This document shows positions 10,123 to 31,189 of a stretch of 38,969 nt of DNA, piece by piece. This stretch comes from a virus. Position numbers and translations under genes: made by a program. The notes below the pieces were generated by a model. It was not told the origin of the DNA and searched no databases. It saw only the letters and a list, made by a program, of their open reading frames with translations. The stretch spans positions 1 through 38,969 of the IMG/VR virus record IMGVR_UViG_3300042402_001379. One strand, given 5' to 3'. The stretch's first letter is position 1. Every line of letters begins with the position of its first letter.

Positions 10123-11151
10123 TTGACTAAGCGCATCGGCTTTGCATGTAAATATATGCATCACAACCAGAATCTTAAGTCTAAGTTGCTTGAAGACATT
10201 CAGCGACCATATAATGAAAAAACTACAACAATTACTTGGCTTAATAATCAGAAGCGCAGCGTTGCAGAAGAACGTCTGTATGATATTGTTAAGCATAATG
10301 CACTCGCACTAGAAAGGCTAATTAGGTATGTTGGATCCCTCCCACCTGAACTTCGTATGGTTCGTATTGGCTCAGGTCTTCTTCCTGCTTATACTCACCG
10401 TGATTGGGATTATTTTTATCGGCAAGCAAGTATCCGAACATGGCTCGACAGAACTTACTCGAGCATTGGCAAAATTGCACGTGAGCTTGATGTTCGCTTG
10501 TCTTTTCACCCTGGGCAGTTCACCGTTTTGGCTTCCGATAATCCAGACATTGTCCGTAACTCACTAGAGGAATTTGAATATCATGCGGATATCATCAGGT
10601 GGATGGGCTACGGTAAGAGTTGGCAAGACTTCAAGTGTAACGTCCACATCTCCGGCAAACAAGGTCCCGCCGGTATCAAAAGCATCCTTCCAAAATTGTC
10701 TCCAGAGGCAAGAAACTGTATTACTATCGAAAACGACGAAAACTCCTGGGGACTCGAAGCTAGCTTAGAATTAATGAATGATGTTCCACTAGTTCTAGAC
10801 GTCCACCACCACTGGGTTAAGACTGGTGAATATATTGAGGTAACAGATGAACGTGTTAGAAAAGTTATTGATAGTTGGCGGGGTGTTAGGCCCGTTCTTC
10901 ATTATAGCATTAGCCGTGAAGACGTTATTCCCACAACTGAAACAAATTCACGGCCAGATTACAAAACGCTCCTCCAAGAAGGCTACAAAAAAGCGAAGCT
11001 AAGGGCGCACAGTGACTATTGCTGGAATACAGCATGTAACGATTGGGTCTTGACTTTTTGGCAAGATTTCGATATTATGACAGAAACTAAAAGAAAAAAT
11101 CTATCTGCTATGCAATTGTATTTGCAAGCAAAGGAAAATGGTCATATATAG
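10123..11151 (+). CDS. uvsE: UV-damage endonuclease UvsE (UVDE family)
   Basis: UVDE-family repair endonuclease of 342 residues, a TIM-barrel metal enzyme that nicks DNA 5' of UV photoproducts and some other lesions. Family signatures include RIGFACKYM at the N-terminus, MVRIGSGLLP, LSFHPGQFTVLAS, NVHISGKQGPAG, ITIENDENSWG, PLVLDVHHHWV and PVLHYSISRED, which supply the His, Glu and Asp metal ligands. The start is a TTG at 10123 with AAGGA eight bases before it; the next ATG would remove the first beta strand and is unlikely. The gene would allow light-independent repair of phage DNA in sunlit water. Its last 44 bases are overlapped by an endonuclease gene on the other strand. Confidence 0.9.
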   Translation: MTKRIGFACKYMHHNQNLKSKLLEDIQRPYNEKTTTITWLNNQKRSVAEERLYDIVKHNALALERLIRYVGSLPPELRMVRIGSGLLPAYTHRDWDYFYRQASIRTWLDRTYSSIGKIARELDVRLSFHPGQFTVLASDNPDIVRNSLEEFEYHADIIRWMGYGKSWQDFKCNVHISGKQGPAGIKSILPKLSPEARNCITIENDENSWGLEASLELMNDVPLVLDVHHHWVKTGEYIEVTDERVRKVIDSWRGVRPVLHYSISREDVIPTTETNSRPDYKTLLQEGYKKAKLRAHSDYCWNTACNDWVLTFWQDFDIMTETKRKNLSAMQLYLQAKENGHI

Positions 11152-11722
11152 GATGAGATTTATCTTTTAAACGACGAATAGTTGTATAGTCAAATCCGGT
11201 TTCTTTTACTATTTCCATAATAGTATGATTATTTAACAAACTGATTGCATTTTCAAATTTTAGATAATCATTTGTATATCTGGTGTGCCATGTTCTCCAC
11301 GCTTTTGCACTTTTATCAACGGTTTTATACCATTCCTTTAAACTAGCAACTCTATTTTGAGTTGCTTCTGCAGACGGTGGGCCGAGCTTTCTACCTTTAT
11401 TAATGCCTATCATTCTTTCACTTTGAAGTTTTCGCATTTCTTCGCTAGGAGAGTAGCCTTGACCGCCGTATAATAAGTTTACGAGCAAGCCGCCTTCGAG
11501 TTTCAGCCCATATTCAGATATAAGTTGTTTTTCTAGATTAAACGCTTGTTCTTCGGTAAGATTTTGTTTGATAATTTTTATACGATTTCTATCATCAGGC
11601 CGAAGTTCTACTCCATTGGATCTTTTATGAGATTGGTATGCTCTATAATTCTTCCCTTTACCTATATAGTAAGGGGTCATATCTTCTCTAAGATACTGAT
11701 AAACGTAATAAATATTTTCCAT
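11108..11722 (-). CDS. Freestanding GIY-YIG homing endonuclease
   Basis: A 204-residue GIY-YIG nuclease on the minus strand, the only clear minus-strand gene here. The N-terminus has the two-strand core in the variant form YYVYQYL and YYIGKGKNYRAYQSH, and then an EEQAFNLEKQLISEYG helix with the catalytic Glu. A NUMOD3-like stretch (SPSEEMRKLQSERMIGINKG) and a C-terminal helix-turn-helix-like segment (IMEIVKETGFDYTTIRRLKD) would bind DNA. This is the composition of T4 Seg-type mobile endonucleases. It has TAGGAG before its ATG. It overlaps the 3' end of uvsE by 44 bases, so it probably arrived by insertion next to that gene. Confidence 0.85.
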   Translation of the reverse strand: MENIYYVYQYLREDMTPYYIGKGKNYRAYQSHKRSNGVELRPDDRNRIKIIKQNLTEEQAFNLEKQLISEYGLKLEGGLLVNLLYGGQGYSPSEEMRKLQSERMIGINKGRKLGPPSAEATQNRVASLKEWYKTVDKSAKAWRTWHTRYTNDYLKFENAISLLNNHTIMEIVKETGFDYTTIRRLKDKSHPIYDHFPLLANTIA

Positions 11723-15359: not shown

Positions 15360-15806
15360 ATGAAGATATCACACATAATTGAAGGATTAAAGGATCCTAA
15401 AGATAACCCATGCTGGGATGGGTATAAACCTGTAGGTACAAAAAAGAAAAACGGAAAAACTGTTCCTAATTGCGTTCCTGAAAGTTTAGAAGAATCATAC
15501 GATGGCGACGAGTTTTACGAAGCGTATGGCGATCTTTGGTTTAACGAAGACGAGCAATTAGACGAGGCTGAATATCAAGGTCGTAAAGTGCCGCTTGGAA
15601 AACCGATCCGAAGCAGTGGTGGCCCTAAGAAGTTCCATGTGTTTGTTAAAAACGGCGACAAAGTAAAAAAAGTAAACTTCGGTGATCCTAATATGAGTAT
15701 TAAGAAATCAAATCCTGCTAGACGAAGAAGTTTCCGTGCTAGACATAACTGCGATAATCCAGGGCCGAGAACTAAAGCTCGTTACTGGAGTTGTAAGGCT
15801 TGGTAA
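15360..15806 (+). CDS. Tagged small protein with basic Cys-containing C-terminal domain
   Basis: First member of the tagged block: MKISHIIE-G fits the tag, with I6-I7-E8 as the predicted prohead-protease site. The 148-residue protein has three parts: a Pro/Lys segment (DNPCWDGYKPVGTKKKNGK), an acidic linker with several further (L/F)-x-E sites (ESLEES, FNEDEQLDEA; L67-D68-E69 before A70), and a very basic C-terminal domain (NPARRRSFRARHNC, KARYWSCKAW). I recall this C-terminal domain from other phage head-region proteins, function unknown. Cleavage after E69 would release a small basic, possibly DNA-binding, protein. Its ribosome-binding site is inside a terminator hairpin. Confidence 0.7.
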   Translation: MKISHIIEGLKDPKDNPCWDGYKPVGTKKKNGKTVPNCVPESLEESYDGDEFYEAYGDLWFNEDEQLDEAEYQGRKVPLGKPIRSSGGPKKFHVFVKNGDKVKKVNFGDPNMSIKKSNPARRRSFRARHNCDNPGPRTKARYWSCKAW

Positions 15807-15807
15807 T

Positions 15808-16428
15808 ATGATAATTTATAAGTTCACAAACACAGTAAACAACAAAGCCTACATTGGTTTCAGCAAATATACTATCGCAGAACGCTGGGACAAACATACC
15901 AAGTTGTCTGCTAAAGATTCTGACAACAGAAAGTTTTACAATGCAATCAGAAAGTATGGACACGATGTTTGGCACAAAGAAGTAATTGCCACAGCGGATA
16001 CTGTAGAGCAAGCCAAGCAATTAGAAATCCAACTAATAGCAGAACACGATACATATAACACTGGCTACAATAGTACACTGGGCGGCGATGGATTTAGTGG
16101 TAATCACCGAGAAGAGTCAAAGCGTAAAGCAAGTAAAGCACTGAAAGGTATTCCAAAAGATTATGATCGTATGCTAGGTAAATCACACAGTGAACAGTCT
16201 AAGCATAAGATTTCAGAAGCTCATAAAGGCATGAAGAAGCCATGGGTAAAGTGGAGCAAAGAACAAATAACCACTAGGGCAATGACACGTAGGAGCCTTA
16301 CAAAAGAGCAGTATGATGAGATACATGCTCTACGTAATCAAGGTAAACTTATCAGAGAGATAGTATCAATCACAGGTCATAGCAACGATATTGTTAAAAA
16401 GTGGCTTAAGAAAGAATGGGTAATATGA
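15808..16428 (+). CDS. Freestanding GIY-YIG homing endonuclease
   Basis: A 206-residue endonuclease with start at ATG 15808, one base after the previous stop. MIIYKFTNTVNNKAYIGFSK is the GIY-YIG core; the catalytic Arg (AERWDKH) and Glu (QAKQLEIQLIAEH) follow. Two NUMOD3-like repeats (NHREESKRKASKALKGI and HSEQSKHKISEAHKGMKKP) and a C-terminal helix-turn-helix (LIREIVSITGHSNDIVKKWL) would bind DNA. It lacks the N-terminal tag of its neighbours and breaks the tagged block, so I read it as a mobile gene inserted between two block members. Its stop codon overlaps the next ATG. Confidence 0.87.
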   Translation: MIIYKFTNTVNNKAYIGFSKYTIAERWDKHTKLSAKDSDNRKFYNAIRKYGHDVWHKEVIATADTVEQAKQLEIQLIAEHDTYNTGYNSTLGGDGFSGNHREESKRKASKALKGIPKDYDRMLGKSHSEQSKHKISEAHKGMKKPWVKWSKEQITTRAMTRRSLTKEQYDEIHALRNQGKLIREIVSITGHSNDIVKKWLKKEWVI

Positions 16429-17399
16429 GATTATTTGAATTATTTGAAGCAAACGTTAGCAGTGTTGGATTGATATTTGGTAGATTCAACCCACCTCACA
16501 AGGGTCATAAAGCAGCATGGCAAATGGCTAGCGAAAATCCTGTTTGGTTTGTTGGCACAAATAAATCAACACAAGGTCCAAAAGACCCACTTCCATACGA
16601 AGTAAAAATTAAAGCAATGGAAACTATTTGGCCAGAAGTATCAAAACACATTGCACCAAGTCAAAGCTGGCTAACTCTTGCAAGTGAAATTTATCAAAAA
16701 TACGGCGACGTGGAATTGCGTGTATACACAGACGAAGACTGGGTATTAAAAACCCTAGAGCAATATAATGGAAAAGAAGGCGCACACGGAGGTTATAACT
16801 TCCCAAAAATTACCAAAGTCCCAACACCAAGATTAAGTAGTGCAACTGCACTAAGAACAGCGGTTGCACTAGGAGATCGCAGAGCATTTGCTGATGCTGC
16901 AGGAGTATCTGCAGATACAATGATAGACGGCAAGCCGTTCTTTGATTTAGTAGCGGAATATTTAGGGCAGTATAAAAAAGAATCCAAAGCTGTTGTATCT
17001 GCTATAAATGAATACGATGACGAAGAAGAAGAAATTTACTACAGTAAAAAATTTGCATCTGTTGCAAAGAAGATTTTTAAATCAATGTATCCCGATGCTA
17101 AAGTTAATGCAAGAGAAGATGATGATGGATATCTAGCTATTGAAACAACAGACGGTGTATTTGGATTTAGTATGGGTGTAACTCATCAATATGGTGATAA
17201 CGTTATAACTGTAGCAAATGCATATGCAGGTCAATACAAGGGCGTTGTAGGACAGCTAGTTAAGTCAGCTGTTGAATTTTTACAACAAAAACACCCAGAT
17301 GCAGAAACTACACTAGTTGCTCAGCACGATGTAAGTGATAACTACTGGCCACAACTTGCTAACAAGTTAGGCATTAACTACGAAAATAATGCGTGGTAA
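16425..17399 (+). CDS. Tagged nucleotidylyltransferase (NMNAT/cytidylyltransferase-like)
   Basis: A 324-residue protein, start taken at ATG 16425 (ATGA overlap) because this gives the tag MRLFELFE-A; an ATG nine bases earlier is in frame but would mask it. Residues 14-180 are a HIGH-type nucleotidylyltransferase domain: GLIFGRFNPPHKGHKAAW carries the HKGH motif (25-28), and LSSATALR (137-144) is the second motif (ISSTxxR type). The closest known class is nicotinamide-nucleotide or related adenylyl/cytidylyl transfer, but the substrate cannot be settled. I194-N-E196 then separates an acidic linker and a second domain (about 205-324) with a faint GNAT-like look (QYKGVVGQLVKSAVEFLQQ, NYWPQLANKLGINYE). 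The predicted location is inside the phage head. Confidence 0.78.
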   Translation: MRLFELFEANVSSVGLIFGRFNPPHKGHKAAWQMASENPVWFVGTNKSTQGPKDPLPYEVKIKAMETIWPEVSKHIAPSQSWLTLASEIYQKYGDVELRVYTDEDWVLKTLEQYNGKEGAHGGYNFPKITKVPTPRLSSATALRTAVALGDRRAFADAAGVSADTMIDGKPFFDLVAEYLGQYKKESKAVVSAINEYDDEEEEIYYSKKFASVAKKIFKSMYPDAKVNAREDDDGYLAIETTDGVFGFSMGVTHQYGDNVITVANAYAGQYKGVVGQLVKSAVEFLQQKHPDAETTLVAQHDVSDNYWPQLANKLGINYENNAW

Positions 17400-17408
17400 G
17401 GACATACA

Positions 17409-17771
17409 ATGAAGATAAATGAGTTTGGCGATGATTACTTTAATGAAACTATACGTAAAGTAAAAGGCGGATATCGCTTAGTTTCTAAATCTGGCAAAAA
17501 TCTCGGAACATATCCTACCCATTCCGGTGCAGAAAAACGTGAGAAACAAGTACAATACTTTAAGCATATGGATGAAGCACCGCAGCAACAGCAACCCCCG
17601 CTCCCTATAGATTTAAATAAAATTAACAATCTTATCGACAAACTAGAAAGTCGGGGCGTTGGTCCAGAGGATGCAGATAAAATGCGTAGAGAAATACAGT
17701 TATTGTCTACACCAAGACAATCAATGCATCCAGAAGCAATACTACAACTATTAACCATATTAGCAGGGTAA
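17409..17771 (+). CDS. Tagged small protein with conserved GGYRLVSKSGKNLG domain
   Basis: A 120-residue protein. The N-terminus MKINEFGDDYFNE is a divergent tag, with F11-N12-E13 in place of L-x-E. Residues 17-52 (VKGGYRLVSKSGKNLGTYPT then SGAEKREKQVQYFKH) form a small basic domain that I recall as common in phage genomes, without a known role. A M54-D-E56-A site follows, then a Pro/Gln linker and a helical tail (INNLIDKLESRG, AILQLLTILAG). Cleavage after E56 would leave two short pieces. It sits between two firmly tagged genes with spacings of 9 and 4 bases, and so most likely belongs to the same packaged set. Confidence 0.65.
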   Translation: MKINEFGDDYFNETIRKVKGGYRLVSKSGKNLGTYPTHSGAEKREKQVQYFKHMDEAPQQQQPPLPIDLNKINNLIDKLESRGVGPEDADKMRREIQLLSTPRQSMHPEAILQLLTILAG

Positions 17772-17775
17772 GAAC

Positions 17776-18969
17776 ATGAGATTACTAGAACTATTCGAAG
17801 CAGACGGGCTGTCGAGACAAGAGGCAAATGCGTTAAGCGTATATAATGCATTTACTAACGCAGGCTTTAGTGATGCTCAAGCCAAAGCTCTTACTGCAGA
17901 AGTTAATAGAGAAAATAGTTTTCAAGATAGATATTTGTATGGCACACACTCTGATCCGTACAACCGTGCCACTAATGCAGGTATGATTAGTTGGCAAGGA
18001 CCACGACACGATTCATTTATGAATTACATGCGTGATGCTGGCAGAGTCGATGACAGCGGTAGTCTTATTCCAGGGCAAGAAACACTAGATGCACAAGCAA
18101 AGTTTGTGCGGTATGAAATGGAAAATGTTCCGGATTATAGCAGAACAGCTAACGAGTTTTTAGCTAATCCAGATATTGACCCAAACACTGCAGCCGAAGT
18201 ATTAGGCGATAATTACATCAGATGGCGTAGAACAGATCCTGCATATAGTGCTGCCGGGTATGCAAACCTATCATCCGGATATGCTACACTAGACAGAGCA
18301 ATGAATACTACAGGCGGAAGTTTTGCTGCAGGTTCATACGTTCCGTCAAGTTCAAATGTTACACTATCAACTAAATCGGCACCGACACCTGTATTAAGAT
18401 CACCTATACCTGCTCCTCCAAATCCGTTTACTAGTATTCCTGCTCGTGTAGGAATTTTGCCTCCTAAGTTTATTCCAAAAATAGACGTAAGTAAACTTCC
18501 AGGTCCTAGTGGTGCAATTAACCTCAGAAGAGATTATAGAGCAAGTGGCGGGCCATTAGACAGTGTTAAAACACTTCAGTCTGGTTTATCTACACTAGGT
18601 TATAGTGTAGGAGATCAAGGTATTGATGGACGTTATGGCAGAAATACAACAGCGGCTGTTAGACAGTTTCAGCAAGACTATGGATTAAAAGTAGACGGCA
18701 TTGCAGGGGTGCAAACTCTAAGTGCAATGAAGGAAATATTTGATAAAACAAGTTTACCCACTAGACCTGTTACACCTACTCCAGGGTTAAGACCGAATAC
18801 AACAGTGGCTACAAAACCAGTTGTTACTGCACCCAAAGTTAATCCAACGCCAATGGGAGCATTTGATCGTACAGGACCGGTTGTAACTCCGCCTAAGCCA
18901 ATTGTAGCACCAAGACCAACTCCGGCACCGGTAATACCTCCGGCAGCAGTCACAGGACAACGCAGATGA
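17776..18969 (+). CDS. Tagged lysozyme-like protein with peptidoglycan-binding domain
   Basis: A 397-residue protein with tag MRLLELFE-A (L6-F7-E8). Residues 12-175 look like a phage tail-lysozyme type lytic domain: YNAFTNAGFSDAQAKALTAE, then NRENSFQD with a candidate catalytic Glu (E46), and GMISWQGPRHDSF. A Pro/Ser linker leads to a PG_binding_1 domain (262-318: LSTLGYSVGDQGIDGRYGRN, AAVRQFQQDYGLKVDG). The tail is Pro/Thr-rich. The domain set fits a cell-wall enzyme used at entry, but most T4-like entry lysozymes sit on the tail, whereas the tag predicts storage in the head. It overlaps the next gene by four bases. Confidence 0.72.
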   Translation: MRLLELFEADGLSRQEANALSVYNAFTNAGFSDAQAKALTAEVNRENSFQDRYLYGTHSDPYNRATNAGMISWQGPRHDSFMNYMRDAGRVDDSGSLIPGQETLDAQAKFVRYEMENVPDYSRTANEFLANPDIDPNTAAEVLGDNYIRWRRTDPAYSAAGYANLSSGYATLDRAMNTTGGSFAAGSYVPSSSNVTLSTKSAPTPVLRSPIPAPPNPFTSIPARVGILPPKFIPKIDVSKLPGPSGAINLRRDYRASGGPLDSVKTLQSGLSTLGYSVGDQGIDGRYGRNTTAAVRQFQQDYGLKVDGIAGVQTLSAMKEIFDKTSLPTRPVTPTPGLRPNTTVATKPVVTAPKVNPTPMGAFDRTGPVVTPPKPIVAPRPTPAPVIPPAAVTGQRR

Positions 18970-19340
18970 GATTACACGATTTGTTCGAAGAAAAAGGAAC
19001 CAAAGCTGAAGCAGGATACATTCCTCGTCCTAAGAATGGTCAAAAATGTATAAATTGTACTATGTGGAGAGATCCAAACAAGTGTAGTGCAGTTGCAGGA
19101 AATATTGATCCCAATGGTTGGTGTGATTGGTATGCAGGCGGTGCATACGGTAAGCGTGGCAAACGTGTAGACGAAGATGGTCGTATTGTGCCTGGTGTTA
19201 ACACAACTGTTGACGTTAAGCCCGGCGAGACTGAACGTCAAGCTAAAAAGTTTTTTGGTGGCGACGGCAAGCCAAAACTGTTAAATACTAGCACAACAAA
19301 TAAACTTTTTAATTTAGGACTGGCAAATGAGAATAAATGA
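18966..19340 (+). CDS. Tagged HiPIP-like Fe-S protein
   Basis: A 124-residue protein with tag MRLHDLFE-E. After a Lys-rich spacer, four cysteines (C28, C31, C40, C53) are arranged as C-x2-C-x8-C-x12-C in CINCTMWRDPNKC, NIDPNGWCDWYAGG. The C-x2-C ... GWC pattern is that of high-potential iron-sulfur proteins, which hold one 4Fe-4S cluster, and similar small domains occur in phages. A basic stretch (GKRGKRV) and a Gly/Lys-rich tail follow. If folded, this would be a redox or DNA-associated cluster carried in the head. A structural zinc site is the main alternative. The next gene begins inside its 3' end. Confidence 0.65.
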   Translation: MRLHDLFEEKGTKAEAGYIPRPKNGQKCINCTMWRDPNKCSAVAGNIDPNGWCDWYAGGAYGKRGKRVDEDGRIVPGVNTTVDVKPGETERQAKKFFGGDGKPKLLNTSTTNKLFNLGLANENK

Positions 19341-22300
19341 AATATCAGAGAACATTAGTCACACAAGTAAACGCTTGCGTGACATTGAACGTGAAAAGAA
19401 AGTAAAGCCAGGCACCGACGAATGGTTTAAGCTATGGTTTAGTTTGCCTTATCTTAAAGAAGCAAAAGAAAATATATACGACATTTTAGAACCTGAAGAT
19501 TGTGGACCATTTGACGGCGGGTGTGTTTTAGTAGCACAAGCATTACAAAAAATTCATGGCGGTGATATAGTAGTTCTTATTAATGATCGTGGAAACGCAG
19601 ATCATGCTGCAGTTAAAATCGGAAATACATTACTAGACTTTGATGGTCCGTTACCTGTCGATAAGTTTGTTAAACGTTTTGAAAAGAACGAACATGTAAA
19701 GATAACAGGCATTCGTCCAATGAAAGACAGCGATTTACCTGAAGCTACAAGAAATCAGACCTTATTGCCTAAAATTATTAATTTATTATCTAAGGGTGTT
19801 AAAGAAGCGTTTTCTTCAGAACCAGATCCTACCGGATATCAACACACTGCACTAACTAATCCACAATATACAATTGTAGTAAACACACCCGGCGAACTAG
19901 ATTGGTATAAGCTAGGTCAACATTTTGCTAATCTCGGACATGAAGATCCTCACGAATATGGTCAAGCAGAAAGCGATATGATGATTGTTGCTCCTAATAA
20001 AGAACAACTGTTGAGATACATGCAAGAATTAGATCGATTAGGTGCTGAATACAAACTAGTCGGCGGCTCACATGAACATCCCGAAATTCATGCCGAATCA
20101 AACGTGTTCACTAATGCACGTATGAACGCAATTAAAGCAGGTAAAACTGAATTTAAAGTTGGTAGTAAAACTTACAAAGTTACAGGTGATACTAAGGATG
20201 AAAAAGAAGCTGTAGCAAATCTTAGCGAATTAATGAATGGCAAAGTTGTTAGTATAAATCTGAAACACCCAGACAGTAAACGTGCAACTACAGCAACAAG
20301 CACAGCATTTAATGAAGATGTAAGCGTTCCTGAAAATGTCTTTCATATGAAAAACAGACTTTTAAAAGTTAAGCAAATAACAGATACTATGAGCAATCGC
20401 CCTCTTATGTTTAGAAGTTTTGTGTATGATGCAGAACCAATTGCAAAAATCATTAAAAAGGTAACTAATGATTCTGCTAGAAGTATCAAAACAGGATCGA
20501 ATCAAAAACAAAACGAAGTTTTAAAAAAATTAGGTATTAGTCATCCAACATTTGCAGCCATGGCCAACAGCAAATACGCAAATGTCAGCCGAGATTCATT
20601 GGAAGATATGGGAGTTTGGGGAATGGAAAACATTTTTATTCCGATGACCAATGAAATATACTACAGTGATGCTATCGAAGATCTAGGCATGGGACGCAAA
20701 TCTGGAGGACGTAATATTATAGTGCAATCTGATTTTGATGTAGATGAAGCAGTAGCAACTTATAAAAAAGGATGGCCGAGTGCCAATTTCGACAACGAAA
20801 TAATTGTCGACACAAAAGAATACTATCTTTTAAATTTACGTTCATTCTTACTAGAATTGACAAGCCCAGAAATCAAAGATAGAATAAAACGTTTAAAATC
20901 AATGTACAACAAATCATATGAAAGACGTGCTGAAGAAAATCATATCAATGATATATTGAAAGATATATTCAAAACAAAAATAACTACATACAGAGATATA
21001 TCAAATTGGATCAGCAATGTTGCCGTTCCGTTTGTAGATATGTTAGCAGCCAACAGAGGTGAGCCAACAAACAATGACGATTATGATGGCGATGATGAAT
21101 GGTCTGACTACAACATCGACAATGACGACTACGACGATGAAGATGAATTAAAATTAGACAATGACGACTACGACGATGAAGATGAATTAAAATTAGAAAG
21201 TGTTGGTAGCAAAGTCAACGAAGAAACCGGCAAAGAAATGTTGAAAATATTCAGAGGTATGCATCATGATGCTGGTATGAATAAAGACATGGATCGTTTT
21301 ATATTATCAAATGATTGGGAACTTAGAGATTTTACTCCTGACATGTTCCCTAGCGAAGAAGAATTTTTCGATTACGACGATCCGTTTGATCGTATAATTG
21401 ATATTGATTATAGCCATCATGTTAATCTAAGCGCACCTATTATTGTAGGACCACAGTTTAGTGATGGCAAGTACAGTGTAATAGATGGTAATCATCGTGC
21501 CGCCGCTGCACAGCGTATGGACAAAACTATCAAAGGTTATTTTCCTGTAAAGAAAGCAACTGAAGCAAGAACATTTGCTCCTCAACAAACTCCTATGCAA
21601 GACTTAGTAAACTCATATCTGTTTTTCACATCATTTGGACAAATGGGAACATCCGACGGTGCTAAATCTTTAGAAAGTGCAGAGAAAATAAAAGAAGTAA
21701 TAAGAACACTTTCCCAAAGTCATAAAAACTTGCAGAATTTAGATAAGCAAGCATTAGAAAAAAACAAAAACAAAATACTCACACATATTCACGATATGAT
21801 GAACTATGCTATTGCTCATTTTAGAGAACATTTAAAGCCGGAGCAATTTGATGCTAAGAAACAACAAATAAACAAGATATTAACCAAATACAATAATATA
21901 ACATCTACAAACGAAAATATGATCCGTGAACAACCAGATAGCAAAAATTATTTGTTACAACTAGAACGTGACAAACGTGCCGGTATGTTAATATTGCATA
22001 TTTTAGATAAAGGCACAGGCAAAAGAACTGAAGTGCGTGGCAAAATGGGGTATGAAACCAATGGCTACGATCCCAATGACAAGTTGCATCAACTGTTGGA
22101 CAAGGTAGGAAAGAGTGCTAGTGTAAGCGACCTTATGAATGGCGACGTTGTTAGTATCAATCCACGTCATCCAGATGGTGCAAGTGCAAAAGCCGCCGCC
22201 GACAAAGCATATAACGAAAACTTTGCTGAAAGCAGTGCGCTGTTCACTTTCAAAATTAAACGTAGAAAATTAAATGTGCCAGCCTTAATAAAAGCAGGTG

Positions 22301-22773
22301 CAATATTCATCACCTATCCACATGGCGAACAAGGGTGGGAAACTAATGATAAACAAGTGTGGTCCTATAGTTTGATCTCACTTTATAATGTCCAAAGCGG
22401 CGGCTGGCCTAAGGATGCAAAAAATTATCTTAAACCACAGAGCTACAAACGAGCAGAGCAACAAATTAACTCAAGTGCGCCAAACCTAGGATCTGATCAA
22501 TTAGTATATGATGGAAAATATAATCAAATACTATGGAGCATTAAAAAGTTAGGTATACCGGACAATGTAGCATTTCTAGATAACAGTCAGCAAGATGTAG
22601 CAGAAAACTTTGCAGATGGTAAGAATCCTGGTCGCAAAGGATTAGCAAAGCGTATGGGTGTAAATACTACAGCAAGTGTTAGTAGTTTAAGAAAGACTGC
22701 TAAAAATAGTTCTGGTGAAAAGCAAAGGATGGCACATTGGCTTGCTAACATGAAAGCAGGTCGTGAAAAATGA
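19327..22773 (+). CDS. Giant tagged multidomain (polyvalent-like) protein
   Basis: An 1148-residue mosaic beginning with a tag variant, MRINEISE-N. In order: a possible papain/NlpC-like domain (C66 in CGPFDGGCVLVAQAL, H93 in ADHAAVKIG, D104); a module at about 165-257 (YTIVVNTPGELDWYKLGQHF); a short module ending LMNGKVVSINLKHPD (about 298-331), repeated later at 931-964 as LMNGDVVSINPRHPD; a large unknown region (340-570); a very acidic linker with two perfect 13-residue repeats (599-624); a ParB-like element (YSVIDGNHRAAAAQRM, 716-731); a helical region; and a basic C-terminal module (TASVSSLRKTAKNSSGEKQR). Sites of the form [L/V/I/F]-x-E lie between modules, for example after 139, 160, 330, 632, 968 and 1093. 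This fits the polyvalent-protein type proposed to enter the host with the phage DNA. Confidence 0.7.
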   Translation: MRINEISENISHTSKRLRDIEREKKVKPGTDEWFKLWFSLPYLKEAKENIYDILEPEDCGPFDGGCVLVAQALQKIHGGDIVVLINDRGNADHAAVKIGNTLLDFDGPLPVDKFVKRFEKNEHVKITGIRPMKDSDLPEATRNQTLLPKIINLLSKGVKEAFSSEPDPTGYQHTALTNPQYTIVVNTPGELDWYKLGQHFANLGHEDPHEYGQAESDMMIVAPNKEQLLRYMQELDRLGAEYKLVGGSHEHPEIHAESNVFTNARMNAIKAGKTEFKVGSKTYKVTGDTKDEKEAVANLSELMNGKVVSINLKHPDSKRATTATSTAFNEDVSVPENVFHMKNRLLKVKQITDTMSNRPLMFRSFVYDAEPIAKIIKKVTNDSARSIKTGSNQKQNEVLKKLGISHPTFAAMANSKYANVSRDSLEDMGVWGMENIFIPMTNEIYYSDAIEDLGMGRKSGGRNIIVQSDFDVDEAVATYKKGWPSANFDNEIIVDTKEYYLLNLRSFLLELTSPEIKDRIKRLKSMYNKSYERRAEENHINDILKDIFKTKITTYRDISNWISNVAVPFVDMLAANRGEPTNNDDYDGDDEWSDYNIDNDDYDDEDELKLDNDDYDDEDELKLESVGSKVNEETGKEMLKIFRGMHHDAGMNKDMDRFILSNDWELRDFTPDMFPSEEEFFDYDDPFDRIIDIDYSHHVNLSAPIIVGPQFSDGKYSVIDGNHRAAAAQRMDKTIKGYFPVKKATEARTFAPQQTPMQDLVNSYLFFTSFGQMGTSDGAKSLESAEKIKEVIRTLSQSHKNLQNLDKQALEKNKNKILTHIHDMMNYAIAHFREHLKPEQFDAKKQQINKILTKYNNITSTNENMIREQPDSKNYLLQLERDKRAGMLILHILDKGTGKRTEVRGKMGYETNGYDPNDKLHQLLDKVGKSASVSDLMNGDVVSINPRHPDGASAKAAADKAYNENFAESSALFTFKIKRRKLNVPALIKAGAIFITYPHGEQGWETNDKQVWSYSLISLYNVQSGGWPKDAKNYLKPQSYKRAEQQINSSAPNLGSDQLVYDGKYNQILWSIKKLGIPDNVAFLDNSQQDVAENFADGKNPGRKGLAKRMGVNTTASVSSLRKTAKNSSGEKQRMAHWLANMKAGREK
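21118..21195 (+). repeat. Perfect 39-base tandem duplication (acidic linker)
   Basis: Two identical 39-base copies (21118-21156 and 21157-21195) in frame within the giant gene, each encoding a 13-residue Asp/Glu-rich unit DNDDYDDEDELKL. The lack of any base difference points to a recent slippage event that lengthened an acidic linker before the ParB-like part. Confidence 0.92.
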
Positions 22774-22991
22774 AATTGTTTTTAAAAAAGATTTGGAGAT
22801 ACTTTAATCCACAGCATATAATTTATTATAAGCATCAGGATAAAGACATGGCAATACATGTAAAGAGTATTGACAAGAAGACTAAAAATCTTATTAAAGG
22901 TAAAACAATTCAAAACGAAACATTTGAAATCTGTAGCGGTGACAAATCACTCGAATACTATATAGAAGAATATAAGGATGACTTAATATGA
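22770..22991 (+). CDS. Small untagged basic/acidic protein
   Basis: A 73-residue protein starting in an ATGA overlap with the giant gene. The N-terminus is basic and aromatic (MKLFLKKIWRYFNPQHIIYY), the middle is Lys-rich (HVKSIDKKTKNLIKGKTI) and the C-terminus acidic (YYIEEYKDDLI). It has no tag with Glu at position 8, no membrane helix and no known motif. Its stop overlaps the start of the next tagged gene, so it is part of the same translational chain. The role is unknown. Confidence 0.55.
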   Translation: MKLFLKKIWRYFNPQHIIYYKHQDKDMAIHVKSIDKKTKNLIKGKTIQNETFEICSGDKSLEYYIEEYKDDLI

Positions 22992-23716
22992 GATTGAAAG
23001 ATATATTTGAAGCTTCGCCGGAAGAAAGAGATGCCGAACGTCGTGCTGCCGCAGCGGCATCGTCAAGGTTGTCGAGACCACCAAGGCAAGGTCAAACAGT
23101 TAGTGGCCCCGATGCTGTTAGAACAGGCGCAACAGGCAATCAAGCATTTGTTTCATCGTTATCTGGTCCCGGGGTAACTAGCTCTAACTTAAGACGTGGC
23201 TCGACAGGCACTGATGTGAGCAGTCTTCAACAAATGTTGATAGACAAAGGTTACAATCTTGGAGATACTGGAGCAGATGGAAAATTTGGTCCGAGAACTG
23301 CCGCAGCGGTTAGACAATTTCAAACAGATTTTGGGTTACAAGCAGATGGTATAGCCGGCGACCAAACAATGTCTGCATTGAATAAGTTAGGAGCAAAACC
23401 GGCAGCAGCACCAGCACCTGGACGAGTAGATCGAGATCAACAAGGTAGCATAACAAGACCGACAACGCCAACAGCACTACCAACTAGACCAGGTCAAGAC
23501 AGAAGTGGTCCTCCAGCAGCACTACCAACCAGACCAGGTCAAGACAGAAGTGGTCCTCCAGCAGCACTACCAACCAGACCAGGTCAAGACAGAAGTGGTC
23601 CTCCAGCAGCACTACCAACCAGACCGGGGCAAAACGTTAGTGGTCCTATAACTGGAGGATTGCCAACCAGACCGGGGCAAAACGTTAGTGGTCCCAGGAA
23701 TAGACGAAGATTTTAA
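22988..23716 (+). CDS. Tagged peptidoglycan-binding protein with Pro/Gly repeats
   Basis: A 242-residue protein with tag MRLKDIFE-A (I6-F7-E8). A charged helix (SPEERDAERRAAAAASSRL) is followed by a PG_binding_1 domain at 69-134 (LQQMLIDKGYNLGDTGADGK, AAVRQFQTDFGLQADGIAG), closely related to that of the tagged lysozyme. The last 100 residues are low-complexity: five units built on LPTRPGQ-x-x-SGP, basic and Pro-rich. There is no catalytic domain, so it may bind cell wall as a partner of the lysozyme or act as a packaged binding protein. The repeats arise from 45-base DNA repeats, likely to vary in number. Confidence 0.72.
   Translation: MRLKDIFEASPEERDAERRAAAAASSRLSRPPRQGQTVSGPDAVRTGATGNQAFVSSLSGPGVTSSNLRRGSTGTDVSSLQQMLIDKGYNLGDTGADGKFGPRTAAAVRQFQTDFGLQADGIAGDQTMSALNKLGAKPAAAPAPGRVDRDQQGSITRPTTPTALPTRPGQDRSGPPAALPTRPGQDRSGPPAALPTRPGQDRSGPPAALPTRPGQNVSGPITGGLPTRPGQNVSGPRNRRRF
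23474..23698 (+). repeat. 45-base tandem repeats in the coding sequence
   Basis: Tandem units of 45 bases start at 23474, 23519, 23564 and 23609, with a diverged fifth near 23657. Units 1 to 3 are almost identical; units 4 and 5 change the second half from CAAGACAGAAGTGGT to CAAAACGTTAGTGGT. Each unit encodes 15 residues around LPTRPGQ. This is a coding minisatellite and not a CRISPR, as there are no spacers. Confidence 0.9.
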
Positions 23717-23792: not shown

Positions 23793-24983
23793 ATGAGATT
23801 ACATGAATTGTTAGAAGCATACGGAGAGTCAAACTTAGGTTTGACTATCTTCGACATTGATGACACACTATTTCATACTACTGCAAAAATCAAAGTAGTA
23901 AAGGATGGTAATGTTGTTAAGACATTAGACAACCAACAATTCAACAATTACAAATTGCAACCTGGCGAAGAGTTCGACTTTGGTGAATTTAGAAGTGCAG
24001 AAAAATTTAATAAAGAAAGCGAACCTATGAAACCAATGATAGCAAAGTTAAATGCTATATTGAAAAATGCAGGTGACAGCAAAGTTATTATGTTAACTGC
24101 AAGGGAAGATTTCGATAACAAGGACTTATTTTTAGATACATTCAGACAGCATGGTATCAACATTGATTTAATACATGTACACAGGGCTGGCAATATAAGA
24201 GGTGATGCAATCCCTGCCGATAAAAAGGCTGTATTTGTAAGACAGTATTTGGACACAGGAAAATATGGTCGTGTAAGAATGTATGACGATAGTATGACTA
24301 ATCTAAAAGTGTTTAACAAACTACAACAAGAATATCCCGATGTAAAATTTTCAGCATATTTTGTAAACCATAATGGCAGCATCAGAACAGTAAAAGATGT
24401 AAATGAAATGAGCAGAGATGAATATAATGCTAAAGCAAAAGAAAAACTAGTCAATGCAGCATTAGAAGCAATGCACAGGCTTGTAAAAAGTAAAGGCGAA
24501 AGACATAGTTTAGGAGATTATGCATTCCGTATTGCAAATAGTTTTGCTGCAGGGCTAAGTCCACGTGAACTCGAAAAACTTTACAGAAACAAATATGGTA
24601 TCGCTGAAGCAGATGTTCCAGAAATTACACAAGTGCAACTAGATACATTAGAAAAGTATTTGGATCAGCTGTTTAGTAAACTAGGCATCGATGTTGAATT
24701 TACCCGTCACTTTTTAGATCGTGTAAACGACGAAAGAAACTTAAAACAAATCACAATAAAAGAACTTGCAATTTTGTTTAAAGACACGTATATCAATTAT
24801 GGTAAGAAGATTGCACAAATGGGTCCAGATGCACAAGCTGTTATCAAGGACATGCGGTCTGATATTAATGTCCCGTTTGTGTTAAATTGGGATTCACGTA
24901 GTCAAGTGTTGGACTTAGTCGCTAAAACAGTAATGCGTAAAAAGAACTTCACAACACCGAATCCTGAATTGCCGTTGAATTAA
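23793..24983 (+). CDS. Tagged HAD-like phosphatase with C-terminal domain
   Basis: A 396-residue protein with tag MRLHELLE-A (L6-L7-E8). Residues 15-205 form a HAD hydrolase: motif I FDIDDTLF (D21, D23), motif II MLTARE (T102), a motif III lysine near PADKKAVF (about 144) and motif IV MYDDSMTN (D165, D166). This group often includes 5'-nucleotidases and polynucleotide phosphatases; the substrate here is unknown. An I270-A-E272-A273 site then precedes a second domain (about 280-396: FTRHFLDRVNDERNLKQ, ITIKELAILFKDTYINYGKK) of a kind that recurs in phage proteins. The I-A-E-A junction suggests that prohead protease would split the two domains. Confidence 0.78.
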   Translation: MRLHELLEAYGESNLGLTIFDIDDTLFHTTAKIKVVKDGNVVKTLDNQQFNNYKLQPGEEFDFGEFRSAEKFNKESEPMKPMIAKLNAILKNAGDSKVIMLTAREDFDNKDLFLDTFRQHGINIDLIHVHRAGNIRGDAIPADKKAVFVRQYLDTGKYGRVRMYDDSMTNLKVFNKLQQEYPDVKFSAYFVNHNGSIRTVKDVNEMSRDEYNAKAKEKLVNAALEAMHRLVKSKGERHSLGDYAFRIANSFAAGLSPRELEKLYRNKYGIAEADVPEITQVQLDTLEKYLDQLFSKLGIDVEFTRHFLDRVNDERNLKQITIKELAILFKDTYINYGKKIAQMGPDAQAVIKDMRSDINVPFVLNWDSRSQVLDLVAKTVMRKKNFTTPNPELPLN

Positions 24984-25878: not shown

Positions 25879-26082
25879 ATGAAAGTCTGGGAAATTGTAA
25901 AAGAAGACGCAAGCGCAGGTGCAACAGGAGCCGGTAGTATTGCCGCTGTTGCAATGCCTCTATTTACAGGTAAAAAAGGCAAAGCACATCACAAAGCTGC
26001 CCGCAAAGCTGTCGGACTTGAAAGCAAGGATGCTGTAGTTCATAACCCAGTATATACACAAATGATTCGGAGAGTCCCATGA
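25879..26082 (+). CDS. Tagged 67-residue Ala/Gly-rich peptide
   Basis: A short protein with tag variant MKVWEIVKE-D (V7-K8-E9 site). After the predicted cut it begins DASAGATGAGSIAAVAMPLF, an Ala/Gly-rich and mildly hydrophobic stretch, followed by a basic part (GKKGKAHHKAARKAVGL) and ends MIRRVP. The basic Ala/Lys composition is like that of small internal head peptides. I recall short relatives in other marine T4-like phages. Overlaps the next gene by four bases (ATGA). Confidence 0.6.
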   Translation: MKVWEIVKEDASAGATGAGSIAAVAMPLFTGKKGKAHHKAARKAVGLESKDAVVHNPVYTQMIRRVP

Positions 26083-28057: not shown

Positions 28058-31000
28058 ATGAAAAAGTTAGAATTAGCATACGAAATTATAAAAGAAAGTA
28101 AAAAGTCCAGAGCTTTATACTTGGAAAGTGGCAGAGATTATCATAAAGTAGCTGCACATATGTATAGTATTTTTGAATGCTATGCACATGGTCTTATTAA
28201 ATGGAACACTGCCAGAACTTACTGGCACAGCAGTATTTTAGAATATCTTAACTTATATAAAGATAATAAAAAACTTTATGTTATGGAAAGCAATCGTATG
28301 CTAGCAGAGTATGAAGATACTCTAAACAGATTCAAGCCCGCACTAGATGAATACAAAAAAGTTTCCGAAGCCAAAATGGTAAGCAACATCGTTGTTAAAA
28401 AACAAATTAGTGAAAGTGTTGCTAAAGATCACAGCAACATCTACTTTAATAAGCGTAGTTTATCAGAAAGCGCAATTAAAGATATTGCACACACAACTGA
28501 TTGGAAAAAAGTAGTTGAATCATATACTAACTTAACCTCAAATGATAAAGATAGACTTCGTATGCTAACTATCTTTGAAAACGATACATTTAATGTTACT
28601 GGTTGGTCAAAACTAAACGAAGGTCCTACTCTAGACACTACACAAATGATTACTACTGTTATGAGTGAGGCTCCTACACCCAAAATGAATCCTGCAGATA
28701 TCGAAGCAGCAATGAGTGCTAATCCAGGTGGTATGCCAAATCTAAGACCGGCAATGGTCGGGTCTATAGCAGGCGGGCAAATTGGAAGAATGGCAGGCAG
28801 CGCAATTGCCGGACCAATTGGCGGAATGGTTGGGAGAGCAATCGGTTCTCAAATTGGATCACGAGTGGGGACAAATATAGCAATGAACAAAGCAAATGCA
28901 GGTAAACCTAGTGTTACACTTAGCACCTCAGGATCAACACCGAGTGCAACAGCACCTACTACTAGCATGAGACCAATGCCAAGACCAATGGCAACAGAAG
29001 ACGCACCGAAAACTAGTATACGTCCAGTTGCAAGACCTGGTAAAAGTTTACCTGGAGGTGGTTATGAATGGCCGAACGGTGCAGTAGAGCCAGGAGCAGG
29101 CGCTAAGTTTATGACAGACATGCCACGTCCTATGCCAAGACCCGCCGGTCTAGGTGCAAAGCCAGCACCAAGCAAAAACATGATAGATGTGTATCCGCCA
29201 CGTGGTGATATGGAAATGGATCCTTCAAACATGGCACCGCCTAGCAAACTTGCGCCAACAACTAGTATAAGACCACAAAGACGTCCGGCGTCAAATGTTG
29301 GTCGTTCTGAAATGTCACCAACTCCTGGTGTATGGGATGGCAGCACACGTGGATTCGAAAGTGTCCAAAAAGAAGGTTATAAAACAATAAAGAGCATTGA
29401 TAAAGAACGTTATGACGAAATTCCTGGCCTAGAAGGTCCGTTCATGACATTAAGTGGTAAGGTTGTTTACTACGATCCAAAGGAAGGCTCATACTATGAC
29501 CGTGACACTGACATGTATCTTTCATACGAAGAATTCAAAGAGCTAGACAATGACTACAGCGGTATGAAGAATACCCGTGAAATAAAAGAAGCATCGTCAA
29601 AAAAAATTGCGTGCCTAAAGTGCGATGAAGTTTCAACCGCTAAAGCATGGGAAAAGAATAACGGATTTTGTCCAAAGTGCAAAACATCATCACAAGGTGT
29701 AGCAGAAAGCAGCGACTATGCAAAGCGCCGCAAAGCAGCCGACGATGAGTATTACGGCAAGAAGAAGCCAAAGCCAGCAGCTAAAGCAGTAGCCAAAACC
29801 GACTACCAGAAGCGTAGAGAAGTAAACGAAGCTGAAGAAGGTACCTATATGAAGCAATGGTATGACTACAGCGAAGACTTTGCAATGCTAGAACTATATG
29901 TTGATGGTAAATTAGTAGACCAATGGAATGATTACTTCGGCGCAAATGTAACAGGTAATCCGTTGCAACAAAAGTTTATTGATATGGCTAAGAAAAACGG
30001 AGTAGATCCGATTGGATTAAAAGTTATCGATGGCGAAGACGGCAACGAGGGGGTCTTTACTAGTCGTGGACTCAAGTGGAATTCAACCGAAGCAAAAGCC
30101 AAGCCAGGACACAATGCTAGAGCAATGGCAAGAGCGCAAGACATTATTCGTAAAAGCATTGAACAAAGTCAAAAAAATGTCGGTAAAAAAGACGATAAAA
30201 AAAAAGACCAAGTAGATGAAGCTGAAGTTACACATTGGGAAGTAAGTTACGATCACGGGCCGCATCAAAGTAATACAGTATCAGTGAAAGCAAAATCTAA
30301 AGAAGAAGCATTAGATAAAGCAAAACAAGTAGCCAAAGATGTGCATAAGCATAATAGAATTACAAGCATCGCAGTTTCTCCAAAAAAGAACGAGTCGTTA
30401 AGTGAGGCAAAAAGCTACGTAGGTCGTGAGACTAAAGATGGCACTTGGAGAGTATTCAAGACTGGTAACGCCGTTGCGGTGGCAGGTCCGTTTAAATCGG
30501 CACAAGAAGCCCAAGCCTGGATTAAGAAACAATCAATGCAAGATAAAGTAGACGAAGCCAACACTTCATACGAAAAAGATATGGACCACGGCAAGGCTGT
30601 TGTGATCCATGGCGTCAAAGGTGTAAAAAGCACACCGTTCCGCAAGAAGTTTAAAAACATGGCTGCATTTGAACGTTGGTCTGACACTGAAGAAGCAGAC
30701 AATTACGAAGTGCATGACATCATGAATGAATCAGTGTTATCCGAAAGCGATATTGTAAACTTTAGTTCGTTTGCCGGCATGTATAGCGACGGCGCACATG
30801 CTTATTTTACAGGTAAAGATGGCAAGGTGCATAAAGTTTCTGCCACAGGTGATAGACCTCGTAAGTTTTACATTAATGGACAAGAAACACCATGGGATGA
30901 GGTTAAGCGTATAGTAGGCAATCAGCATATTCAGCCGATGCAAGGTATGATGCACGAATCTAACGTCAACGAAGCAGTTACACTTGACTACTCACGTCAT

Positions 31001-31189
31001 GTAAGATCACACGGTAAAAAGCCACGTGACCCTGGATACTCTGCACTATGGATGTTTACTACACGTGAATATGACATGCCAGACGATGACGAGATTTTTA
31101 AATTCCAAGGTAGCTTTGCAGATGCTAAAAAAGCTGCCGCAAAATGGGCCAAGACTCAAGGCGCATACCGTGTTTATGTGATGGAGTAA
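28058..31189 (+). CDS. Tagged beads-on-a-string polyprotein
   Basis: A 1043-residue modular protein. The N-terminus MKKLELAYEIIKE-S ends in an I-K-E site at 13. A helical domain (about 14-180) is followed by a Gly/Pro/Met-rich region (205-430) with a glycine-zipper-like stretch (236-275). From 435 on, small domains follow one another, separated by [V/L/I]-x-E-[A/S] sites after residues 511, 550, 591, 721, 783, 833, 896 and 972. These bound, for example, a 39-residue zinc-ribbon (C519, C522, C538, C541), a 130-residue alpha/beta module, and four modules of 50 to 76 residues (HWEVSYDHGPHQSNTV, YVGRETKDGTWRVFKTG, FSSFAGMYSDGAHAYF). Earlier sites fall after 104, 119, 137 and 188. The pattern suggests a precursor cut by the prohead protease into mini-proteins. 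Confidence 0.72.
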   Translation: MKKLELAYEIIKESKKSRALYLESGRDYHKVAAHMYSIFECYAHGLIKWNTARTYWHSSILEYLNLYKDNKKLYVMESNRMLAEYEDTLNRFKPALDEYKKVSEAKMVSNIVVKKQISESVAKDHSNIYFNKRSLSESAIKDIAHTTDWKKVVESYTNLTSNDKDRLRMLTIFENDTFNVTGWSKLNEGPTLDTTQMITTVMSEAPTPKMNPADIEAAMSANPGGMPNLRPAMVGSIAGGQIGRMAGSAIAGPIGGMVGRAIGSQIGSRVGTNIAMNKANAGKPSVTLSTSGSTPSATAPTTSMRPMPRPMATEDAPKTSIRPVARPGKSLPGGGYEWPNGAVEPGAGAKFMTDMPRPMPRPAGLGAKPAPSKNMIDVYPPRGDMEMDPSNMAPPSKLAPTTSIRPQRRPASNVGRSEMSPTPGVWDGSTRGFESVQKEGYKTIKSIDKERYDEIPGLEGPFMTLSGKVVYYDPKEGSYYDRDTDMYLSYEEFKELDNDYSGMKNTREIKEASSKKIACLKCDEVSTAKAWEKNNGFCPKCKTSSQGVAESSDYAKRRKAADDEYYGKKKPKPAAKAVAKTDYQKRREVNEAEEGTYMKQWYDYSEDFAMLELYVDGKLVDQWNDYFGANVTGNPLQQKFIDMAKKNGVDPIGLKVIDGEDGNEGVFTSRGLKWNSTEAKAKPGHNARAMARAQDIIRKSIEQSQKNVGKKDDKKKDQVDEAEVTHWEVSYDHGPHQSNTVSVKAKSKEEALDKAKQVAKDVHKHNRITSIAVSPKKNESLSEAKSYVGRETKDGTWRVFKTGNAVAVAGPFKSAQEAQAWIKKQSMQDKVDEANTSYEKDMDHGKAVVIHGVKGVKSTPFRKKFKNMAAFERWSDTEEADNYEVHDIMNESVLSESDIVNFSSFAGMYSDGAHAYFTGKDGKVHKVSATGDRPRKFYINGQETPWDEVKRIVGNQHIQPMQGMMHESNVNEAVTLDYSRHVRSHGKKPRDPGYSALWMFTTREYDMPDDDEIFKFQGSFADAKKAAAKWAKTQGAYRVYVME

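Follow-up and report, generated by a model that had tools for sequence, protein, structure and literature searches.

A 1148-residue phage protein of shuffled modules as a probable head-targeted cargo polyprotein

Background

In T4, the prohead protease gp21 cleaves after L/I-X-E, and head targeting takes no more than ten residues of IPIII (PMC9026906). Proteins ejected into the host include Alt and many of the internal proteins (IPs) (PMC9026906; PMC5694885; PMC3012670), and gp22, gp67, and gp68 are cut by gp21 into pieces that mostly leave the head (PMC9026906, PMC5694885). The virion RNA polymerase of phage N4 is packaged unprocessed (PMC5512222), and a cytidylyltransferase family has been found in cyanophage virions (PMC3037559, PMC10665884), including those of S-SM1 (PMC3037559). 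Here, we describe a 1148-residue protein whose open reading frame (ORF) was confirmed at 19327–22773 (+) of IMG/VR virus record IMGVR_UViG_3300042402_001379, the full 38,969 bases of which were analyzed and are called the window below. Its N-terminal tag and the motif at its internal joints suggest a cargo polyprotein that would be directed to the phage head and cut there. A search of the literature, itself incomplete, found no description of a tagged polyprotein architecture of shuffled modules.

Results

A T4-like tag on the protein and on its neighbors

The initial annotation described the protein as tagged, and the ORF does open with MRINEISE/N (the slash, here and below, marks a predicted cut), a short propeptide ending in a gp21-type L/I-x-E site. 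The same type of tag is found on neighboring ORFs, among them those for a cytidylyltransferase, a lysozyme/PG-binding protein, and a HAD protein. In the non-overlapping gene set of the window, 14 ORFs fall between 15.3 and 28.1 kb, and 8 of them fit the pattern M[RK]...[LIVFM]xE; none of the 29 same-strand ORFs elsewhere does, and internal methionine contexts fit in 4 of 223 cases. The tagged ORFs, at least eight in number, form an island of ~13 kb.

The tag was also compared with the translated genes of S-CREM2, a cultured cyanophage with a published virion proteome (PMC10665884). Six non-structural ORFs of this phage fit the tag and five of them are in the virion (Fisher p = 2e-4): the SAM hydrolase (MKDFDSFLEE), gp13 (MKDLHSFLTE), a kinase (APH; VKRFDAFLTE), the cytidylyltransferase (MKNFSSFLTE), and gp17, a loose match only. 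The sixth, outside the virion list, is 61 residues long. The virion-borne Cas9 of S-CREM2 (gp12; L206 7704–10313) has a stretch resembling a capsid targeting sequence (CTS), LRFASFMAEA, at residues 17–26, and gp160, also in the virion, holds a CWDGYK-type module like that of the window ORF starting at 15360. The term capsid targeting is absent from the S-CREM2 paper, whose authors leave open carry-over from purification for some of the virion-listed proteins (PMC10665884). Cytidylyltransferases of other phages start with MKSFFQFLSEA in S-SM2 and MKKFSAFLTEA in P-SSM7, and those of RaK2 and XaC1 are without a tag. The named Kyanoviridae Melnitz-3 and C48C1 (L203, L205) likewise have tagged modular ORFs in clusters, with starts such as MKKFSEIIEA and MKKFKQYIDEG.

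The tag-end motif recurs at internal joints

The candidate cut sites that the initial annotation placed between modules are borne out as sequence motifs, which occur far above chance. Before the basic C-terminal module (C-module), E stands at position −1 in 51 of 51 distinct upstream contexts and L, I, V, M, or F at −3 in 43 of 51, the other upstream positions being unremarkable. For the DGRIVKG module, exact [LIVMF]xE precedes the start in 11 of 16 contexts, and most of the others have the motif a few residues earlier.

A first, unrestricted boundary scan was too noisy by itself, and a tag-adjacent test was used instead, in which the residues that follow a tag served as the query and the sequence preceding the same stretch, where it is internal elsewhere, was scored; queries shifted by 15–100 residues were the controls. 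Exact [LIVMF]xE preceded the internal copies in 72 of 205 distinct contexts compared to 25 of 1295 controls (Fisher p = 2e-46, the contexts not being fully independent events, as modules share ancestry), so that tag ends and internal joints are interchangeable. Within five residues, the motif was present in 147 of 205 contexts and 370 of 1295 controls. The queries fell into 50 clusters of module starts, and an exact case turned up in 23 of these. A few of the 50 come from ORFs that fit the tag pattern by chance, such as a Clp-like ORF, which dilutes the signal and does not create it.

A chain of modules found again in other orders

The protein is a chain of ~10 modules, most of which are found again in other phage proteins and in other orders (Table 1). 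As a polyvalent-type protein, which is how it had been annotated, it combines at least two distinct domains in a single chain, ParB-like and YunG-like domains among them, but it seems more fittingly called a cleavable polyprotein, in a family whose members draw shuffled modules from a common library. The order of modules is permuted between loci, running M6-M2-ParB in L129, M2-ParB-M6 in L127, and ParB-M2-M6 in L092. M2 occurs 36 times with its model start among non-redundant ORFs, in 21 distinct upstream contexts. At least four modules are found alone behind a tag elsewhere: module 331–583 in L087, L097, and L099 (tag MKINEIIE/ in the latter two), the C-module as a 65-residue ORF behind MRINELFE/ in L079, M7 as a separate 131-residue ORF in L012 with the start MRIDEFTTTVIELLE/, and the LMNG repeat module in L119.

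The C-terminus is basic, as annotated, residues 1094–1148 having an isoelectric point of 11.5 and the 52-residue core containing 11 K+R and 2 D+E. This NFADGK module is highly identical across many loci, and because its amino acid identity is 92% with a third-base identity of only 54% at conserved residues, it is under strong purifying selection. The reported duplication of the LMNG element holds in that 19 of 36 residues are identical between 297–332 and 931–966 (84% of the DNA over 37 bp), but these are not two equal domains. Two equal LMNG modules were considered and rejected, the first being a truncated copy of the module at ~869–968, joined to another small module.

Head machinery and origin of the window

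A head block was found in 5 of 13 related contigs, and each of the five has both a gp21-type prohead protease gene (PF03420) and a gp23 capsid gene (PF07068), neither of which occurs without the other. In the two contigs read through the block, G001 and G003, it runs portal-like, core-like ORF, gp21, gp22-like, gp23, a T4-like order, and the capsid N-termini contain the candidate sites ALNE/NATAGG and LLQE/TPTNFA. By position and composition, the head block of related contigs has separate gp22-like and acidic gp67/68-like ORFs.

Because its DNA polymerase (34248–36947) is nearest to that of large phages such as Sinorhizobium phage Phosso and the RaK2 and Munch groups, at 43–48% identity, the window is taken by inference to be a piece of a T4-like myovirus genome. 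The carrier is an uncultured aquatic phage. Neither the whole protein nor the C-module had a tblastn match among cultured phages, and a scan of genome contigs for the C-module was likewise negative. In many related contigs, the region sits between DnaJ-/Clp-like genes and the DNA polymerase gene and is variable in content.

Putative functions of single modules

The whole protein had no match above cut-off in Pfam, PHROGs, or NCBIfam, and most of its modules are not represented in Pfam or PHROGs. The VIDGNHRAAAA element, correctly recognized as ParB-like, is part of a module of ~115 residues for which Pfam ParB_N matched 7 of 12 aligned members (best E 1e-4) and a profile search against PDB reached SbnI, ParB, and Noc proteins (best E 0.003); the DGNHR core is invariant save for one N-to-A change. 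The protease-like domain fared less well, as C66, H93, and D104 are present but no protease profile scored above cut-off, and Pfam gave neither a peptidase match nor a metallopeptidase domain in the 1148-residue protein. The C-H-D segment resembles phage YunG-like proteins, with a sub-threshold Pfam match to Phage_YunG-like (PF24591, E 0.006) and a 25% match (E 0.01) to a giant ORF of virus Rctr197k, which adjoins an annotated terminase and whose own segment matches the same family (E 0.005). A search for further relatives of this domain found none.

In module 331–583, the alignment has a conserved R and an EVIVDT-like strand motif. No profile matched this module above cut-off, which leaves the suggested ADP-ribosyltransferase (ART) identity a guess from motifs. 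AlphaFold models, built from 7 sequences for this module and from a single sequence for the C-H-D domain, had mean pLDDT values of 42 and 46, both below 50 and unusable.

The tagged island and a second long ORF

The remaining features of the island are listed with the modules in Table 1. The long ORF at its far end is likely a second polyprotein, judging by its joints, and a module within it matches the small KVP40 ORF KVP40.0154, which starts MQGFKDYFKKGE. Two of the tagged ORFs (17776–18969 and 22988–23716) are peptidoglycan-related, as if murein-active proteins were head cargo as well. GIY-YIG-like ORFs, read by eye, lie at 15736–16428, within the tagged island, and at 11108–11722 (−); these are possible homing endonucleases that could aid module shuffling.

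Table 1 Modules of the 1148-residue protein and neighboring features, in window coordinates (a slash marks a predicted cut)
Feature	Position	Strand	Remarks
Tagged ORF MKISHIIE/, modules CWDGYK + EYQGRK	15360..15806	+	CWDGYK-type module shared with S-CREM2 virion protein gp160
Tagged cytidylyltransferase MRLFELFE/A	16425..17399	+	Pfam PF01467 above cut-off
Small ORF MKINEFGDD	17409..17771	+	Module also fused within L129 and L127 polyproteins
Tagged lysozyme + PG_binding protein MRLLELFE/A	17776..18969	+	Pfam Phage_lysozyme2 plus PG_binding_1
Tagged ORF MRLHDLFE/ with module VDE/DGRIVPGVNTTVDV	18966..19340	+	Sequence
N-terminal tag MRINEISE, T4 CTS-like	19327..19350	+	[LIVF]xE end; predicted gp21-type cut after residue 8
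Module HTAKRL, residues 9–45	19351..19461	+	Also in small ORFs and other tagged proteins
C-H-D, YunG-like domain, ~residues 55–140 (C66, H93, D104)	19489..19746	+	Pfam PF24591 E 0.006, sub-threshold
Module M6, residues 161–258	19807..20100	+	~30 relatives among loci ORFs, positions varied
Small basic module fused to truncated LMNG repeat copy, residues 259–330	20101..20316	+	
Large module, residues 331–583	20317..21075	+	ART-like by motif reading only
Acidic linker with tandem NDDYDDEDELKL	21076..21222	+	Sequence
ParB-like module, residues 633–746	21223..21564	+	Preceded by VNE/
Helical module, residues 747–868	21565..21930	+	Also in L006, L008, L021
Full LMNG repeat module M2, residues 869–968	21931..22230	+	Preceded by IRE/
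Module M7, residues 969–1093	22231..22605	+	Preceded by FAE/
Basic C-terminal module NFADGK..., residues 1094–1148	22606..22773	+	Preceded by VAE/
Tagged PG_binding repeat protein MRLKDIFE/A	22988..23716	+	Pfam PG_binding_1; tandem LPTRPGQDRSGPPA repeats
Tagged HAD-type protein MRLHELLE/A	23793..24983	+	Profile searches
Tagged small module MKVWEIVKE/	25879..26082	+	SAGATGAGSIAAV module behind internal VSE, MEE, or IAE in other loci
Second long ORF, 1043 residues, joints VDE/A, LSE/A, VDE/A, LSE/S, VNE/A	28058..31189	+	Sequence

Discussion

These results make it likely that the 1148-residue ORF encodes a head-targeted cargo polyprotein, from which the prohead protease would release separate effectors for injection into the host. 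In the mechanism proposed here, the 8-residue tag would bind the prohead core as the T4 CTS does and, after shell assembly, a gp21-type prohead protease would cut behind the tag and at the [LIVM]xE joints. Once released, the modules, among them ParB-like, YunG-like, helical, and basic ones and a possible ART, would remain with the packaged DNA, be injected, and act early in the host, probably against defense or on host enzymes; an anti-defense action is plausible by analogy to T4 IP1 and Alt. Head targeting by the tag, as proposed in the initial annotation, is well supported by the T4 CTS/gp21 motif rules, by the gp21 and gp23 genes of related contigs, and by the tagged virion proteins of S-CREM2.

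Several points weigh against this reading. The case for this phage itself is one of sequence evidence, head genes are absent from the 39-kb window, and for two modules the enzyme assignment is weak. The tag is 2 residues shorter than that of T4 IPIII, and the tag pattern has a low frequency, ~3–4% of ORFs, in distant large contigs. Some 28% of the internal instances are without [LIVMF]xE within 5 residues, and the joints might be no more than acidic linkers. Enrichment in the unrestricted boundary scan extended to untagged ORFs, though it was lower there at module starts (2.2- vs 3.3-fold). The S-CREM2 comparison involves six ORFs, with gp17 fitting only loosely, and the cytidylyltransferase was not recovered from S-PM2 virions (PMC3037559).

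The ORF might instead encode a head-targeted polyvalent protein that is left uncut and injected whole, like the unprocessed N4 virion RNA polymerase (PMC5512222), with the xxE positions being linkers or recombination joints. Targeting requires only that the tag be cut, and shuffling by itself would place joints at linkers, but we consider this rather unlikely given that the joints bear the tag-end motif, with E in all 51 C-module contexts and the exact motif far above the offset controls, and that a short motif suffices for T4 gp21 (PMC9026906). An assignment of the tagged modular proteins to the prohead core, their fragments leaving the head as most gp21 fragments of T4 gp22, gp67, and gp68 do (PMC9026906, PMC5694885), would be consistent with the numerous E-rich linkers. 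This is improbable, however, since related head blocks already hold separate gp22-like and acidic gp67/68-like ORFs, enzyme-like families (ParB-like, cytidylyltransferase, lysozyme, HAD) are represented among the modules and tagged neighbors, the island is hypervariable in content, and mature S-CREM2 virions contain tagged enzymes. Short motifs are degenerate and the evidence for this phage comes from sequence, and the tag could on those grounds be a coincidental N-terminal helix on intracellular takeover proteins made after infection. The clustering of the tags (8 of 14 ORFs vs 0 of 29) and their presence on the cytidylyltransferases of S-SM2, P-SSM7, and S-CREM2, where the family is virion-borne, compared to untagged RaK2 and XaC1, make such a coincidence highly improbable.

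If the cargo polyprotein reading is true, this would be a phage counterpart of polyprotein processing for effector delivery. The tag and the xxE joints would form a readable sequence rule for proteins that T4-like phages may inject and that are now annotated as hypothetical, and they offer a simple explanation for the SAM hydrolase, kinase, cytidylyltransferase, and possibly Cas9 in cyanophage virions. Evenly balanced, in our judgment, is the broader proposal that the hypervariable island in T4-like phages of fresh and coastal waters is an effector cassette, with dozens of interchangeable modules linked in tagged polyproteins through prohead-protease sites, freed in the head, and co-injected; gaining a new effector would then require no more than the insertion of a module between two such sites.

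Compared to known systems, the closest likeness is to T4 IPI-III and Alt, which share a short N-terminal tag with an L/I-x-E end, very variable cargo, and T4-type gp21 and gp23, here in related contigs. Each T4 cargo gene yields essentially a single product, freed of its tag, whereas here shuffled modules are joined by a repeated cut motif. Like the polyvalent proteins (Iyer et al. 2017, PMC5512222), this is a large phage protein of several domains, one of them ParB-like, with a proposed action in the host, and its YunG-like domain also occurs in the giant Rctr197k ORF that adjoins an annotated terminase; unlike them, it has no Pfam metallopeptidase, carries a targeting tag, and is probably cut by a head protease. 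In phiKZ and SPN3US, a gp21 homologue cuts head proteins, among them inner-body and ejection proteins, after x-x-E, as is predicted here, but those phages have long propeptides and fixed proteins in place of short tags and shuffled modules. Among the cyanophage virion enzymes (the SAM hydrolase, kinase, and Cas9 of S-CREM2 and the T4-GC190 cytidylyltransferase), three of four start with a CTS-like tag and the cytidylyltransferase family is common to the window; these are mostly single-enzyme products, in contrast to the long module chains described here.

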